DNA from: Fimbriimonadaceae bacterium | GTDB lineage: Bacteria; Armatimonadota; Fimbriimonadia; Fimbriimonadales; Fimbriimonadaceae | DNA length: 64,000 nucleotides | Reading direction: 5' to 3' | NCBI GenBank assembly: GCA_022843485.1 | Contig: JALHNM010000005.1 | Location: 124,001-188,000, forward strand | Shown here: one piece after another, positions 39,134 through 45,432 of the stretch | Numbering within the stretch: position 1 is the first letter of the stretch | Layout: the number at the start of each line of letters is the position of its first letter | Made by a program: the position numbers and the translations under genes | The notes under the pieces: model-generated | What the model was told of the DNA's origin: nothing | Databases searched by the model: none | The model's input: only the letters and a program-made list of their open reading frames with translations

Positions 39134-39168
39134 GGTCGGGGCCCCGCTCCACAAGCGGGGCCCCGACC
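39134..39168. terminator. 15-bp stem hairpin, downstream border of the capsid cassette
   Basis: GGTCGGGGCCCCGCT (39134-39148) pairs perfectly with AGCGGGGCCCCGACC (39154-39168) around a 5-nt loop. It sits between the convergent PEP-CTERM gene and the last capsid-cassette gene. Confidence 0.7.
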
Positions 39169-39169
39169 G

Positions 39170-39478
39170 TCACGCGAGGCCGAAGACGAGGAGCCGCGCG
39201 ACCGTCGACCCGCGAAACCGGGCCGGGACCACGCGTCGGACGGTCGAGGAGGTCCCGTTCCACTCCACCACGTCCCCAACGGCGGTCGCGTCGGTCGCCG
39301 CGACCAGACAGACCCAGAAGGGCGGCGCGACCCCGTCCAGCTCGGCCTGGGCCAGGAACGACCGGACGAACCCGCTCGAGATCGGGCTGAAGAGGCCCCG
39401 CCGAGGGGCCCCACCGACCGTGAACGACTCGCCGTGCCGGTTCACGAGCCCCTCCACCCGCCTCGCCACCGCGCTCAC
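39170..39478 (-). CDS. Phage head-closure or tail-joining-like protein
   Basis: This 102-residue protein has a beta-barrel pattern (FTVGGAPRRGLFSPI, FWVCLVAATDATAVGDVVEWNGTSSTVRRVVPARFRGSTVARLLVFG). In phage head-to-tail modules, small beta-barrel closure proteins follow the connector gene, and this gene fits by size and position (last of the cassette, 4-bp overlap with the connector-like gene). Sequence alone is not diagnostic. No cysteine pattern, signal peptide or membrane segment is seen. The terminator hairpin begins 2 bp after its stop. Confidence 0.55.
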   Translation of the reverse strand: MSAVARRVEGLVNRHGESFTVGGAPRRGLFSPISSGFVRSFLAQAELDGVAPPFWVCLVAATDATAVGDVVEWNGTSSTVRRVVPARFRGSTVARLLVFGLA

Positions 39479-39888
39479 GGGTCCTCCGGCTCCCGCTCAC
39501 CGCCGAACGAGACGCCCAGCGTGCCCCGAATCGTCTCGCCCGGCTTGAGGTACGGCGTCAACCGCGCGAGCCCCTGGCGCTTGAGGCCGAACGGGTCGTT
39601 CAGGTCGCGCCAGGCGGGCGAAAGCTCGAACCACCCGAACGAGAGCGACTCGCTCGCCCCCGGCTCGCGGGCGATCTCCGCCGTGATCTCCCCCGCGATC
39701 ACCTCAGTGGCCGCCAAGTTGAGGGTCGCGACGAGCTGCGTGTTCGGATCGTCGACGAAGCGCCGCTCGACCGAGTACTCGATCACCGGCACCAACTCTG
39801 CGATGAGGGTGGTGATCCGGGCGTCGTAAGCGGTGCCCGTGATCGCCGCCTTCTCCCGAACCCGGGTCACGGTGACCGTTATCGGCAT
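39475..39888 (-). CDS. Phage head-tail connector-like protein
   Basis: This protein is about 137 residues long. After a short N-terminal stretch (MPITVTVTRVREKAAITG), helices ITTLIAELVPVIEYSVERRFVD and TLNLAATEVIAGEITAEIARE form the bundle seen in gp6/DUF1320-like connectors, and the tail ends with LARLTPYLKPGETIRGTLGV. In Mu-like phages this position (after the capsid) is taken by J/gp36. The ATG at 39888 is chosen because the upstream frame extension is antisense-like. The 4-bp overlap with the next gene supports it as part of the cassette. Confidence 0.6.
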   Translation of the reverse strand: MPITVTVTRVREKAAITGTAYDARITTLIAELVPVIEYSVERRFVDDPNTQLVATLNLAATEVIAGEITAEIAREPGASESLSFGWFELSPAWRDLNDPFGLKRQGLARLTPYLKPGETIRGTLGVSFGGEREPEDP

Positions 39889-39940
39889 GGGCCCCCCATG
39901 ACAGGAAGGCCCGGGCCGCACGCCCGGGCCATCGCGCCCC

Positions 39941-40189
39941 TCATCGCCGGAACCGAACCACCCGCTTGAGCGCCCCGAGGAATGTCCGAAGCTCGGCCGC
40001 GACCGACCGCACCTCCTCGAGCAGCTTTCGCAAGTCCGTGCGACGGGGGTCCCGCAGAGTCTCGTCGAGCACGGTGGCGAGTTCGCCCAGCTCGGCCGCG
40101 AACCGCCGACCCGCAAGGTAGACCGCCCCGATCGCTCCGACCGCGCCGCCCAACCCCAGCGCCCCAAGCAGACTAGCTAAGCTTTCCAC
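39941..40189 (-). CDS. Small membrane protein within the capsid cassette
   Basis: This 82-residue protein has one or two Gly/Ala-rich N-terminal membrane helices (SLLGALGLGGAVGAIGAVYLAGRRF), then an amphipathic, charged helix (ELGELATVLDETLRDPRRTDLRKLLEEVRSVAAELRTFLGALKRVVRFRR). The architecture resembles a holin or small spanin-like membrane protein, but no family is assigned. It overlaps the 3' end of the capsid gene by 17 bp, and its position between capsid and connector is unusual for a holin. The start is GTG. Confidence 0.55.
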   Translation of the reverse strand: MESLASLLGALGLGGAVGAIGAVYLAGRRFAAELGELATVLDETLRDPRRTDLRKLLEEVRSVAAELRTFLGALKRVVRFRR

Positions 40190-41114
40190 CGTAAGCCGCC
40201 TGCCACAGCCCGTAGCCCACGTTGTAGCGCGCCCGCACGCCGTAGAGGTAACGATCCTGCATAAACGCCGCCTCGGAGCCGGTCTGCGATTCCAGGGCCG
40301 TGAACTCCACCGGCACGTCCGAGCGCTGCTGCAGGACGATGCCCTTGATCGCTCGCTTCGTGTCCAGGAGGAACCAGGCGTCCTGACCCGTGCCCGTGAC
40401 GTACGGCGAGACGACCAGTCGGAGCCGTCCGCTGAACGCGTTCATGTACGGCGAGGGCGAAGTCCCGGCGGACGTGGTCGCCTTGTAGACCACCACCGGA
40501 CTCTCGACGAGCTCGATCGCGTCCCACATGAGGTTCGGCCCGACGACAAGGGTGTCCGGCACGATGCCGAGCGGGATCCCGGCGTCGTCGCGGAACGCCA
40601 TCATGGCCGACATCGCCGTCGCCAGCGTCCCAGCCGCCAGTGCACTGGCCGTCGTGTTCGACACCGTGCCGCCCCCGGAAGCCGGGTGGCTTGCCGAGAA
40701 GAACGAGACCCCGTCGTACCCCGTCGCCGTCCCGCCTGCCAAGAGAGCCTGGACGACGATCTGGTGGCGGTGCTGACTGACGCGGTTCGCGAGGTCCCGC
40801 ACCCGCAGCCGGATGAGGTCGAGCTGGTCGTCCTCGACCGCCCGGCGGTCGACCGCGATCGTCGACTCGAACGTCTTGTCCTCGATCGTGACCGAGTACT
40901 CGCTCATGCCCTGAGGCCGGCGCTCGTCCACGAACTCCCGCATCGGCGGGGTCGCCCCGAGCCAGGCGTAGCGCTGAACCGGGAGCGTCGTGCTGATCAC
41001 CGTCGCGATCTGGTTGGCGATGCTGTCCTCGACCTGGCTCCGGTACGCCTGGTCGAACTCCGTCTTGAGCCCCGGCAGCAGCAGGTTCGGAATGTCACTC
41101 TTCGTCAATGCCAT
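40173..41114 (-). CDS. Mu gpT-like major capsid protein (HK97 fold)
   Basis: This 313-residue protein resembles the Mu-like major head subunit gpT. It has an N-terminal helix (FDQAYRSQVEDSIANQIATVI), the conserved RRPQGMSEYSVTIEDKTFESTIAVDRR, and DDQLDLIRLRVRDLANRVSQHRH. The gpT-typical GVSFFSASHPASGGG and a central DTLVVGPNLMWDAIELV strand follow, then FLLDTKRAIKGIVLQQRSDVPVEFTAL and RYLYGVRARYNVGYGLWQ. All segments of the HK97-type fold appear intact, so it could still assemble a shell. It follows the decoration-like gene by 27 bp. Confidence 0.85.
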   Translation of the reverse strand: MALTKSDIPNLLLPGLKTEFDQAYRSQVEDSIANQIATVISTTLPVQRYAWLGATPPMREFVDERRPQGMSEYSVTIEDKTFESTIAVDRRAVEDDQLDLIRLRVRDLANRVSQHRHQIVVQALLAGGTATGYDGVSFFSASHPASGGGTVSNTTASALAAGTLATAMSAMMAFRDDAGIPLGIVPDTLVVGPNLMWDAIELVESPVVVYKATTSAGTSPSPYMNAFSGRLRLVVSPYVTGTGQDAWFLLDTKRAIKGIVLQQRSDVPVEFTALESQTGSEAAFMQDRYLYGVRARYNVGYGLWQAAYGGKLS

Positions 41115-41141
41115 GTTCTTTGTCCTTGGGTCTCCGCGCGC

Positions 41142-41579
41142 CTAGACGCTGTAGTTGTCGATGCGGACCCGTACGCCCGCCTGGCCGGTCGAGGCCGTCT
41201 CCAGGGCCACGATCGTGCCGAGCTTGTACTGGTTCGTGAGACCGCCCGTGGCGACCTGGACCTCCCAGTCCGTCAGCCCCAGCACCTCCTTCCCGATGTC
41301 CGCTTGGGCGGGGGTAAAGCCGGTCGCCGCCTTGAGGACGAACGAGCCCGTCTTCGTCACGTTGACGGAGCGCGCCCCGGCCGACCCGGCCGAGTTGTCC
41401 ACCGACTCGCTCGCCACCCCGACGAACCGCAAGTTCGCCACGTCGTGCGCCATCGGGACGGCGAACCCCGCCGCGTTCACACCGACCGCCGCACCCTTGA
41501 AAATGCGGACATTGCTCATGCGATACGACACGACCAAACCCGGTCGCTCGTAAGTCTCGAATGCTTTGCTAAGTGCCAT
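41142..41579 (-). CDS. Capsid decoration-like protein (DUF2190-type)
   Basis: This 145-residue all-beta protein has MSNVRIFKGAAVGVNAAGFAVPMA, VGVASESVDNSAGSAGARSVNVTKTGSF and VGLTDWEVQVATGGLTNQYKLGTIVALETA. This is the pattern of head decoration/cement proteins such as those with DUF2190, which sit on the capsid surface. In phage clusters this gene often lies between the protease and capsid genes, as here. The start ATG at 41579 has GAGAG upstream. Assignment rests on pattern and neighbourhood, not on a signature motif. Confidence 0.6.
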   Translation of the reverse strand: MALSKAFETYERPGLVVSYRMSNVRIFKGAAVGVNAAGFAVPMAHDVANLRFVGVASESVDNSAGSAGARSVNVTKTGSFVLKAATGFTPAQADIGKEVLGLTDWEVQVATGGLTNQYKLGTIVALETASTGQAGVRVRIDNYSV

Positions 41580-41609
41580 GAGGTCTCTCGAGGGTTCCCA
41601 GACTCAGCG

Positions 41610-42530
41610 TCACGCCGAGGCCGGACCGGCCCCTCGACGCCGGGAGATCTCGCCCAGGCTCAGACCCGGGAAGTACCGCTCGTAGAATGCGGCCTCTTCT
41701 GGGCCCATAGGCTCGCCGAGGTCGCGTTCGGGGTCCGGGGCGCGCTCCGAGAAGAGCCCGTGGGCCGGTGCCCGATCGATCAGGCCCTGAACCAAGGCCG
41801 CCACCGGAGTCTCGGCCTCACCGAACCGGACGACGTCGTCGCAGGCGAGGAGGGTCTCTGCGAATGCGACCTGGGCAGGCACGAGCCGCCCGGCGCTCAC
41901 CGCGTTCGCCACCGCCGCCCGGACAAGGTCCCGCCGGATCGCGTCACGAACGGTCGGCAACGGCTGCGACCAACGGGTGACCCCCGACGCCGCCCCGAGC
42001 AGCCTCGCGCCCTTCACCCGAGGTGTGCGCACGAGGCTCACCTCGACGATCCGGTCAAGGTCCGACGTCACCCCGAGCGAGAGCGAGTACGCCCCCGACT
42101 GTTCGATGAGGTCGTTCGCCTCCTTCGAGAACGCGAGGATCCCGGTCAGTTCGTCCCCTTCCGCGACCACTTGCGTCAGGTAGCCGAGTTCGAGCGGGGA
42201 CTCCGCGTGCTCGATGAGCACCGGCACGGGAAGGTCGAACCCCTCCGCGAGTTTCGCGAGGTGGGCTGCTGTCACCGTCAGGCCCTTGTCCGGATAGGCC
42301 CCGGCGGCAAAGAGCTTCGCCCTGCGATCGATCCAGAGGCGAGGGTTTTCCAGGTAGGGCGGCGGCTCGATCTCGAGCTCGCCCAGCGACTCCAGCAGGC
42401 TGGCCCGCTCAGCGAGCGACCCCGGGCGCCGCACGCCCCGGTAGCCCGGACCGAGCTCCGCCGCCCGCCGCAACGCCAGCCGCGCCCGCTCGTCGTCCGG
42501 CGGGCCTTGGTGGAACTGTGTTTCGTCCAT
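41610..42530 (-). CDS. Mu gpI-like prohead protease
   Basis: This 306-residue protein contains the phage I-type protease core: KLFAAGAYPDKGLTVTAAHLAKL (about 72-94), VPVLIEHAESPLELGYL with candidate catalytic His108, and AYSLSLGVTSDLDRIVEVSLVRTPRV with candidate Ser165. The C-terminal third is helical and could act as the internal scaffold, as in Mu where I/Z share a gene. Such proteases trim capsid precursors during head assembly. It is the first gene of the cassette. The PEP-CTERM terminator hairpin lies just upstream, so its own promoter should lie within 42531-42600; none is obvious. Confidence 0.72.
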   Translation of the reverse strand: MDETQFHQGPPDDERARLALRRAAELGPGYRGVRRPGSLAERASLLESLGELEIEPPPYLENPRLWIDRRAKLFAAGAYPDKGLTVTAAHLAKLAEGFDLPVPVLIEHAESPLELGYLTQVVAEGDELTGILAFSKEANDLIEQSGAYSLSLGVTSDLDRIVEVSLVRTPRVKGARLLGAASGVTRWSQPLPTVRDAIRRDLVRAAVANAVSAGRLVPAQVAFAETLLACDDVVRFGEAETPVAALVQGLIDRAPAHGLFSERAPDPERDLGEPMGPEEAAFYERYFPGLSLGEISRRRGAGPASA

Positions 42531-42599
42531 CGACGAGAAACGGGAGCCCTAGCCCCGGCCCGTCAACAAGTCCCACCGGATCTCCCGGTCAAAAACGAG

Positions 42600-42633
42600 A
42601 AAGGCCCCCTCGGCACGAGGCCGAGGGGGCTTT
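42600..42633 (-). terminator. Intrinsic terminator of the PEP-CTERM gene
   Basis: On the reverse strand the stem CCGAGGGGGC/GCCCCCTCGG (42604-42613 with 42621-42630) has a 7-nt loop and flanking AAA/TTT, and a T-rich tract follows towards 42590. It ends the PEP-CTERM gene before the capsid cassette on the same strand. Confidence 0.75.
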
Positions 42634-43611: not shown

Positions 43612-45432
43612 TTGGCACGAAAGACCGAAACGAACCTCACGGACGCGTTCGCGCGCGACTTCGCCGACCGTTTGATCCTGTCGACCCTGACCGACCTCCA
43701 CGAGGTCGTCAAACCCAGCGAGATCTCCGACCGCCTCCAAGGCGAGGGCCTAGGACTCGCGACCGTCCGGTCCCTGCTCGCCTCAAACCCCAACCGATTC
43801 GCCTACAACGAGCGGCGCTGGATCCCGGCCGCACGCCTCGAGGCCGAAGGTAGGCCACTCCACGAGGCCGCCCGCATCAGCGTCGACCGCTTCGGCGCGC
43901 CCATGCCCCTGGGCCTCCTCGTCGACGAACTCAGCCGAAGCCGCGCCGCCGACCGGGAAGTCACCGAGAATGCCCTCCTGCGCATCGTCCTGGACGACCC
44001 GTTCCTTCTCCTCACGCTCGACGGTCACGTCGCCGGCTCCAACCTCGTGTTCGTCGCCCGGGACGAGACCCCCGAACGCGCCTACGCCCTCAACCACCTC
44101 AACCCCGACGAAGTCGCCGACGTCCAAGCGCGCCTGGGGGCGTTCGACTGGCGCCAGGCCGACGCCATCGTCCGGGCCATCGAAGCCGCCGCACCGGTCA
44201 GCGTCAAGGGCCTCGGCGCCGCCGCCTGGCTCGCCCTCAACCCCCAACGGCCCCAGGCAGTCCTCCTCTACGACTGGCGGGCCTTCAACGCAGAACTCCT
44301 CAGCATCCCGGGGTTCGTCTACCGAAACGACGGTGCTCTCCACCCCGAGGCCGAGATCAAGAAGTGGATCAGCGCCGCTGTTAAGCTCGCCGACACCGTC
44401 CAGCCCACGATCGAGGTCGAAGACGCGGCCCCGCTCGAGCTCAAGAAGGAGGACCACGAGGCGCTCATCGCCAAGGTCGTCGGCGCCGGTGAGACCGTCA
44501 CCGCCACCCGACTCCTCGAGACCCAGTTCGAGATCACTCCCGCCGTCAAGACCTTCCCGGACGACCTCCGGAACGTGATGACCGCCCTCAAGCACGACGC
44601 CCGCGTCTGGTGGGTCGGCGGTGACCGGTTCCGGACCCCAGGCAGCGCCCCCGATTTCATCACCGACGTCCCGGAGCCGTTCCTCTTCGTCCCCACGGAG
44701 CATCTTCAGGAAGACGGCGACCCCGTCGACGCCGAGCTCAACGACGACGGCCTCAGCACGTCGCTGCGCAAACTCATCGCCCACCCCCTGGCGACCGACG
44801 TCAACGACGAGGACGTCGTCCCCGCGCCCAAGAACCTGCCTGAGTCCATGCGGCTCGTGCTCAAGCCGATCCACCGCGAGCTCGGAACCTTCCCGCTCAG
44901 CCAGTTCCCGACCGGCTTCTTCAGCAACGAACCCGAGGTCCAAGAGCTCCTGCTCATCGACGCCGACGGTCGCCAACTCCAAGCCTGGCTCAACACCAAG
45001 GCAAGGCTCATCTTCGGGCTGCTCGATTGGTGGCTCGACCAGCCGGTCGAGTCGGGCGCGGTGTTCAGCCTCACGAAGACGGCCAAGCCGAACGTGCTCG
45101 AGTTCGCCTGGCTCGACCAGACCGACCCCGTCGTCTACATCAGCCACCAGCGGATGGAGGAACTGCGCGAGATCGCAGCCCGGTCAGAGGCCCTCTCGAC
45201 CTTCGACGTCCTCCGCGAAGTCATGGCCCACTGGCCGAAGGGCGCCGACTTCCTCACGATCCTGTGGGAGGTCAACGTCGTCCGACGCACCTCGCGCCGG
45301 CTCCTGTCGTCCCTGCTCAGCAGCTACGTCTGCTTCTACCAGCGATCCGGTTCGCCGGTCTGGCACTACGACGCCAAGAAGGTCGAGCAAGGGTTCGACA
45401 AGACCAAGAAGAAGTTCGTCGTCAAGCCCTAA
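43612..45432 (+). CDS. Large soluble protein of unknown function
   Basis: This 606-residue protein starts with TTG (AGAGGA lies 7 nt upstream). It has no signal peptide or membrane helix. The N-terminal 130 residues have short helical units with LTDLHEVVKPSEISDRLQGEGLGLATVRSLLASNPNRFAYNERRWIPA, a winged-helix-like pattern. A second similar unit follows (HEAARISVDRFGAPMPLGLLVDELSR). The middle and C-terminal parts are alpha/beta and acidic. This suggests a DNA- or RNA-binding regulator with tandem helix-turn-helix modules, but I recognise no family. Confidence 0.7.
   Translation: MARKTETNLTDAFARDFADRLILSTLTDLHEVVKPSEISDRLQGEGLGLATVRSLLASNPNRFAYNERRWIPAARLEAEGRPLHEAARISVDRFGAPMPLGLLVDELSRSRAADREVTENALLRIVLDDPFLLLTLDGHVAGSNLVFVARDETPERAYALNHLNPDEVADVQARLGAFDWRQADAIVRAIEAAAPVSVKGLGAAAWLALNPQRPQAVLLYDWRAFNAELLSIPGFVYRNDGALHPEAEIKKWISAAVKLADTVQPTIEVEDAAPLELKKEDHEALIAKVVGAGETVTATRLLETQFEITPAVKTFPDDLRNVMTALKHDARVWWVGGDRFRTPGSAPDFITDVPEPFLFVPTEHLQEDGDPVDAELNDDGLSTSLRKLIAHPLATDVNDEDVVPAPKNLPESMRLVLKPIHRELGTFPLSQFPTGFFSNEPEVQELLLIDADGRQLQAWLNTKARLIFGLLDWWLDQPVESGAVFSLTKTAKPNVLEFAWLDQTDPVVYISHQRMEELREIAARSEALSTFDVLREVMAHWPKGADFLTILWEVNVVRRTSRRLLSSLLSSYVCFYQRSGSPVWHYDAKKVEQGFDKTKKKFVVKP

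Follow-up and report, generated by a model that had tools for sequence, protein, structure and literature searches.

A phage head exapted for DNA packaging, inherited with its hosts and scattered over their genomes, probably exists in the Fimbriimonadia as a gene-transfer-agent-like viriform of Armatimonadota, and part of it is encoded in the DNA analysed here (the window, 64,000 nucleotides, G000:C5:124001-188000). The retained genes form a complete set for a DNA-filled icosahedral head, namely capsid, decoration protein, protease, portal, large terminase, adaptor and stopper. The home genome (G000) comprises 2.96 Mb in 20 contigs and is 98.8% complete.

The capsid cassette

Six intact open reading frames lie head to tail on the minus strand of the window at 39170-42530, in the order protease, decoration protein, capsid, small membrane protein, adaptor and stopper. 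The cassette and its borders are as follows:

42604..42630, minus strand: strong intrinsic terminator of the preceding gene, 5' border of the cassette
42562..42567, minus strand: GTTGAC box, -35-like, 31 nt before the protease start; the same box precedes the terminase
41610..42530, minus strand: g1, prohead protease, Mu gpI-like (phrog_976, E 5e-8)
41142..41579, minus strand: g2, head decoration protein (phrog_1731, E 6e-19)
40173..41114, minus strand: g3, major capsid protein of the Mu gpT family (PF10124 gpT, E 2e-60)
39941..40189, minus strand: g4, small membrane protein with a conserved GGxxGA motif (homologs in 26 loci)
39475..39888, minus strand: g5, putative neck adaptor (AlphaFold model pLDDT 89.6; 40 homologs)
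39170..39478, minus strand: g6, putative neck stopper or head-completion protein (model pLDDT 93.5; 35 loci)
39134..39168, no strand assigned: 14-bp GC stem-loop without a T run, read from the sequence, 3' border of the cassette

The first-pass annotation had read the block as intact, compact genes for a protease, a decoration protein, a gpT-like capsid, a small membrane protein, a connector and a closure protein, and the families and folds that we found agree with it. It had also described the block as bounded by terminators, which holds for the 5' side, where a strong terminator ends the upstream gene, but not for the 3' side, where the GC stem has no T run. Residues E107-H108, S151, E163 and S165 of the protease are invariant across 52 homologs, and the decoration protein keeps 43-77% identity among relatives. 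Neither g5 nor g6 has a significant family by sequence, and their roles were assigned via the predicted fold. The g5 model, built from 37 homologs, matches the adaptor of SPP1 (gp15) and HK97 (gp6), with a probability of 0.96 and an E-value of 0.15 for the top match, and the g6 model, built from 34 homologs, matches the chain of the lambda neck stopper, gpFII-type (probability 1.00, E 2e-3). At a guess, g4 could be a holin or a membrane anchor; neighbour relatives carry a second small membrane protein, whose gene is absent from the window.

The flanks consist of housekeeping genes, and no portal, terminase, integrase or tail gene was found among those read around the cassette. Nearly all named relatives of the window capsid belong to Armatimonadota, class Fimbriimonadia. 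One cassette (L075, JADZEW010000005.1) sits in a bin labelled Methanoregulaceae archaeon and is 93% identical in DNA to that of a Fimbriimonadaceae bin, probably through mis-binning. Elsewhere in the window, at 43612-45432 on the plus strand, a 606-aa protein with no Pfam family is encoded, which adjoins the capsid cassette in nine loci.

Terminase, portal and layout across the phylum

The absence of packaging, integration and tail genes reported by the annotation holds for the flanks read, but the genome does encode a terminase and a portal: a large terminase and a Mu-type portal (PF06074, E 5e-75) are neighbours at G000:C4:149.8-152.3 kb. They form a two-gene cassette on another contig than the capsid, with a SurA-like gene on one side and other housekeeping genes around it. 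This terminase is the only intact large one in the home genome, and across 51 homologs from the phylum conservation of its Walker A, Walker B and nuclease aspartates is 96-100%. Beside the intact pair, at G000:C4:149081-149702, lie remnants of a second, damaged terminase-portal copy, with 56% identity in the portal C-terminus and 74% in the terminase N-terminus. One copy stays intact as its duplicate decays.

Capsid and portal go together across relatives. Both are found in 42 of 61 related genomes, the portal only in four, the capsid only in none and neither in 15 (p 5e-11; one capsid match of 23% identity is left out of this count). Each is mostly single copy, and the terminase, usually single too, has the same presence pattern. 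The four genomes with a portal and no capsid count against a host-inherited packaging head. Of 71 loci, 70 have an uninterrupted capsid frame; in the remaining one (L101) it is apparently split into two. The presence of the block in most relatives, together with the purifying selection described below, supports the domestication that the annotation had considered, and the single-copy portal and terminase elsewhere in the genome fit its further suggestion of a gene-transfer-agent module in several blocks.

The capsid cassette is found by itself, apart from terminase and portal, in the window as in many genomes, as it would be if the shell had been domesticated for a use other than DNA, such as an encapsulin-like compartment. 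The co-retention of portal, terminase and neck proteins, with catalytic residues intact, makes such a shell very unlikely. Of the genes within 10 kb of 21 capsid loci and 15 portal loci, those of the module are the only ones to recur broadly, and in a wider set of about 80 module loci they are joined by some shared housekeeping neighbours. All eight module genes lie together in G015, the terminase follows about 1.4 kb past the end of the capsid block in G059, and in the complete genome of G041 capsid, portal and terminase occupy three distant sites. The three-locus layout belongs to one sister family; the set otherwise occupies two cassettes. In family f2, proteins of 157-199 aa and 680-717 aa with no Pfam family follow the capsid (L087:10994-13506, L089:12045-14674, L085:10897-13614) and are candidates for surface or receptor proteins.

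Of 131 genomes sampled over the phylum, 60 have terminase homologs, and the strong homologs are mostly single. Families f21, f38 and f39 have a single cluster with the order terminase-portal-protease-decoration-capsid-adaptor-stopper, which we infer to be the ancestral form. A small-terminase-like gene stands in front of some of these outgroup clusters, and small coil-plus-membrane proteins are encoded 3' of the stopper. In two outgroup genera an endolysin follows the stopper, an Amidase_3 protein (E 1.5e-34) in G092 and an M15-type one (phrog_465, E 4e-12) in G130. In two genera of f21 an aquaporin-like gene is nested between terminase and portal (L347:10909-11682, L359:10664-11437), consistent with a gradual break-up of the cluster.

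Inheritance, selection and promoter

The module seems to be inherited mostly vertically, as judged from trees and synteny, which we used because distance correlation alone is a weak test of vertical descent. Identities to the window for capsid and PPDK are 83 and 84% in G001, 79 and 81% in G008, and 79 and 79% in G025. A tree of capsid, terminase and portal has most clades in common with one of rpoC and PPDK, the placements of G019 and G009/G032 being different, and carB and PEP-CTERM genes adjoin the capsid cassette in both G000 and G008. Genomes without the module are scattered over the rpoC tree, which needs 8 changes, the same number as shuffles, and within the family the distances of terminase and portal do not follow those of rpoC; therefore some transfer between lineages may have taken place.

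The head genes are under purifying selection, with dN/dS values of 0.03-0.2 for the capsid, 0.10-0.25 for the terminase and 0.03 for the portal. This bears on two possibilities that the annotation had raised. We found no complete Mu-like phage carrying these genes at another site, and the block, which might have been missing from relatives or in neutral decay, is present in most of them, with the capsid values just given. A Mu-like prophage decaying in dispersed pieces would also leave phage-derived genes at separate loci, and damaged duplicate fragments do lie nearby. The ancestry in that proposal, likewise made in the annotation, stands; its decay does not agree with orthologs that are intact across several families of an order, with dN/dS values far below 1 or with parts that are lost together, and we regard it as very unlikely. 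A functional Mu-like prophage, with contiguous head, tail, replication and integration genes, is at odds with the housekeeping flanks and with a portal and terminase on another contig.

The annotation had also proposed a satellite, and a phage satellite or other mobile element moving between genomes would be compatible with patchy presence and with a compact head-only gene set, which resembles that of some satellites. Such elements are integrating, mobile and compact, but here the genes are split over chromosomal loci and so cannot move together, no integrase or replication genes were seen adjoining the module in the flanks read, and tree congruence, synteny and housekeeping flanks point to mostly vertical inheritance. 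A satellite is for these reasons highly improbable.

Capsid and terminase cassettes may be under shared control, as suggested by a GTTGAC box that in many genera precedes the start of both protease and terminase by roughly 30-45 nt. Of the 42 terminase rows, 23 have the box (about 21 of 38 genomes once the four counted twice are merged), as against 11 of the 395 other ORFs at these loci (p 7e-19), a control rate lowered by the operon-internal ORFs among the controls; only the terminase comparison is like for like, because the protease rows used a window of 240 nt and the control ORFs one of 110 nt. The signature is mostly absent in family f2, and is present at two f8 terminases and at the small-terminase-like gene of G137. 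A palindrome, GTAGA(C/A)-N4-GTCTAC, often lies in the spacer between -35 and -10 of the capsid promoter (L016, L057, L064, L071, L074, L077, L081). A strict search for the composite promoter/operator recovered the capsid cassette in six genomes; ten other matches to the composite pattern, examined as candidates for a third co-regulated locus, looked like chance and were mostly inside coding sequence.

Tail, mode of action and known systems

None of the tail families PF10145, PF13550, PF04865 and PF05709 was found in the home genome, the only one searched for PF10145, and the PF13550 matches in relatives are part of ordinary prophages, several of them close to another, weaker portal. Across about 80 module loci no adjoining tail gene recurs, and none was recognised in the outgroup clusters or inspected flanks, where some genes have no known family. 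The four Pfam tail families, the neighbourhood analysis and the promoter search are suggestive of a module without a tail.

Two viral sources were considered and rejected. A recent viral origin does not agree with capsid relatives in IMG/VR of at most 47% identity and terminase relatives of about 30% at most (one single-sequence query). A prophage-like block in G038:C45 (L229-L230) encodes a related capsid, an amidase and large tail- or fibre-like proteins, with a portal and an unrelated terminase about 20-30 kb away, beyond housekeeping genes. We took it as a separate phage and not as an uncut ancestor that kept its tail, because its terminase is of a different family and its capsid is 38% identical.

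In an exapted packaging head, which we prefer, the cassettes would be switched on together from the shared GTTGAC promoter, probably in few cells. Protease and capsid would assemble a prohead on the portal, and the terminase would pack host DNA into it, since no replication or integration genes accompany the module. Adaptor and stopper would close the filled head. Its release would fall to the small membrane protein and to an endolysin, which some outgroups encode next to the cluster and which was not located in Fimbriimonadia, and the particle would act either as a gene transfer agent or as a container that protects DNA. Among the presumed steps of host DNA packaging, release and delivery, delivery to other cells is the weakest point, as no tail was recognised.

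A sub-case of this reading, distinct from an injecting gene transfer agent, is a tailless device whose DNA-filled heads would be released by lysis to provide protected extracellular DNA, which cells might acquire through natural competence, or would be kept as an intracellular DNA store. The contiguous outgroup clusters, with head and, in two genera, lysis genes and no recognisable tail, speak for it, as do the home genome, which has no tail family among those tested, and the lack of an extra shared gene near the module loci. However, the stopper, normally a tail-docking protein, is kept, tail proteins diverge fast and four Pfam families were tested, some cluster genes have no known family, and there could be a third locus. 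We consider such a device possible, at clearly less than an even chance. Equally tentative is the corresponding history, a widespread, anciently inherited tail-less packaging head whose ancestral terminase-to-stopper cluster with lysis genes would have been dismantled into promoter-joined cassettes and which would transfer or protect DNA with no phage tail involved.

If our preferred reading is right, a mostly uncultured phylum holds a further gene-transfer-agent-like group with a Mu-like head, dismantled yet kept. It would offer a case in which to test why cells retain such particles and to what extent a phage can dissolve into its host and, if tailless, would pose the testable question of how DNA leaves and enters cells. 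The module may also explain the 'incomplete prophage: portal; head; capsid' calls of prophage finders in Fimbriimonadales bins (PMC8597652). We found no published description of such a system in Armatimonadota in the open-licence literature.

Gene transfer agents are defined as viriforms whose caudoviricete-derived proteins form caudovirion-like particles with mostly random host DNA, fully endogenized and often at multiple loci, with more genes than one particle can hold, mostly inherited vertically while co-diversifying with their hosts, and delivering DNA to other cells; three groups with established genetics, independently exapted, are formally classified (PMC9662315). In the module, homology and fold indicate derivation from caudoviricete proteins. 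Endogenization is full and over multiple loci (cassettes on C5 and C4 of the home genome and three sites in G041), at distances that likely leave the genes too dispersed for one particle. Clades and synteny point to mostly vertical descent, against which stand patchy presence and within-family terminase and portal distances that depart from rpoC. Since the genomic part of the definition (PMC9662315) is matched in part, and as seen from genes alone, we call the module gene-transfer-agent-like and not a gene transfer agent.

With Mu-like phages (Mu, JBD30, FP_Mushu) the module shares the PF10124 capsid, the PF06074 Mu-type portal and the protease-decoration-capsid order, but it has no transposition, replication or recognised tail genes, and its capsid is about 31-36% identical to phage capsids among the matches listed. 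The last two capsid segments, 154-240 and 245-310 (window 40173-41114; L121, L123 and PDB 8rkc compared), follow each other the other way round in JBD30 and in several capsids of Mu-like viruses. In Faecalibacterium, FpGTA I packages host DNA and GTA-like heads without identifiable tails were seen (PMC12946183); it differs in its phylum, its single operon and the short-tail homologs it encodes. RcGTA of Rhodobacter (Rhodogtaviriformidae) is, like the module, exapted and spread over several loci (five in R. capsulatus), and it co-diversifies with its hosts (PMC9662315), as the module may also do. It has head and tail genes in one cluster, whereas the module is split and comprises only genes for the head, and the home genome has no member of PF13550, a tail family of the RcGTA type. 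The closest parallel for a terminase encoded away from the cluster is the Brachyspira agent (BhGTA/VSH-1, Brachygtaviriformidae), whose phage-like genes are inherited vertically, as those of the module mostly seem to be, and whose single-copy terminase gene likewise stands apart from the main structural cluster (PMC9662315). For BhGTA, both particles and gene transfer have been proven, whereas the Armatimonadota module is known from its genes, and the module differs in its phylum, in its Mu gpT-like head with no recognised tail and in having its cassettes at two or three loci.
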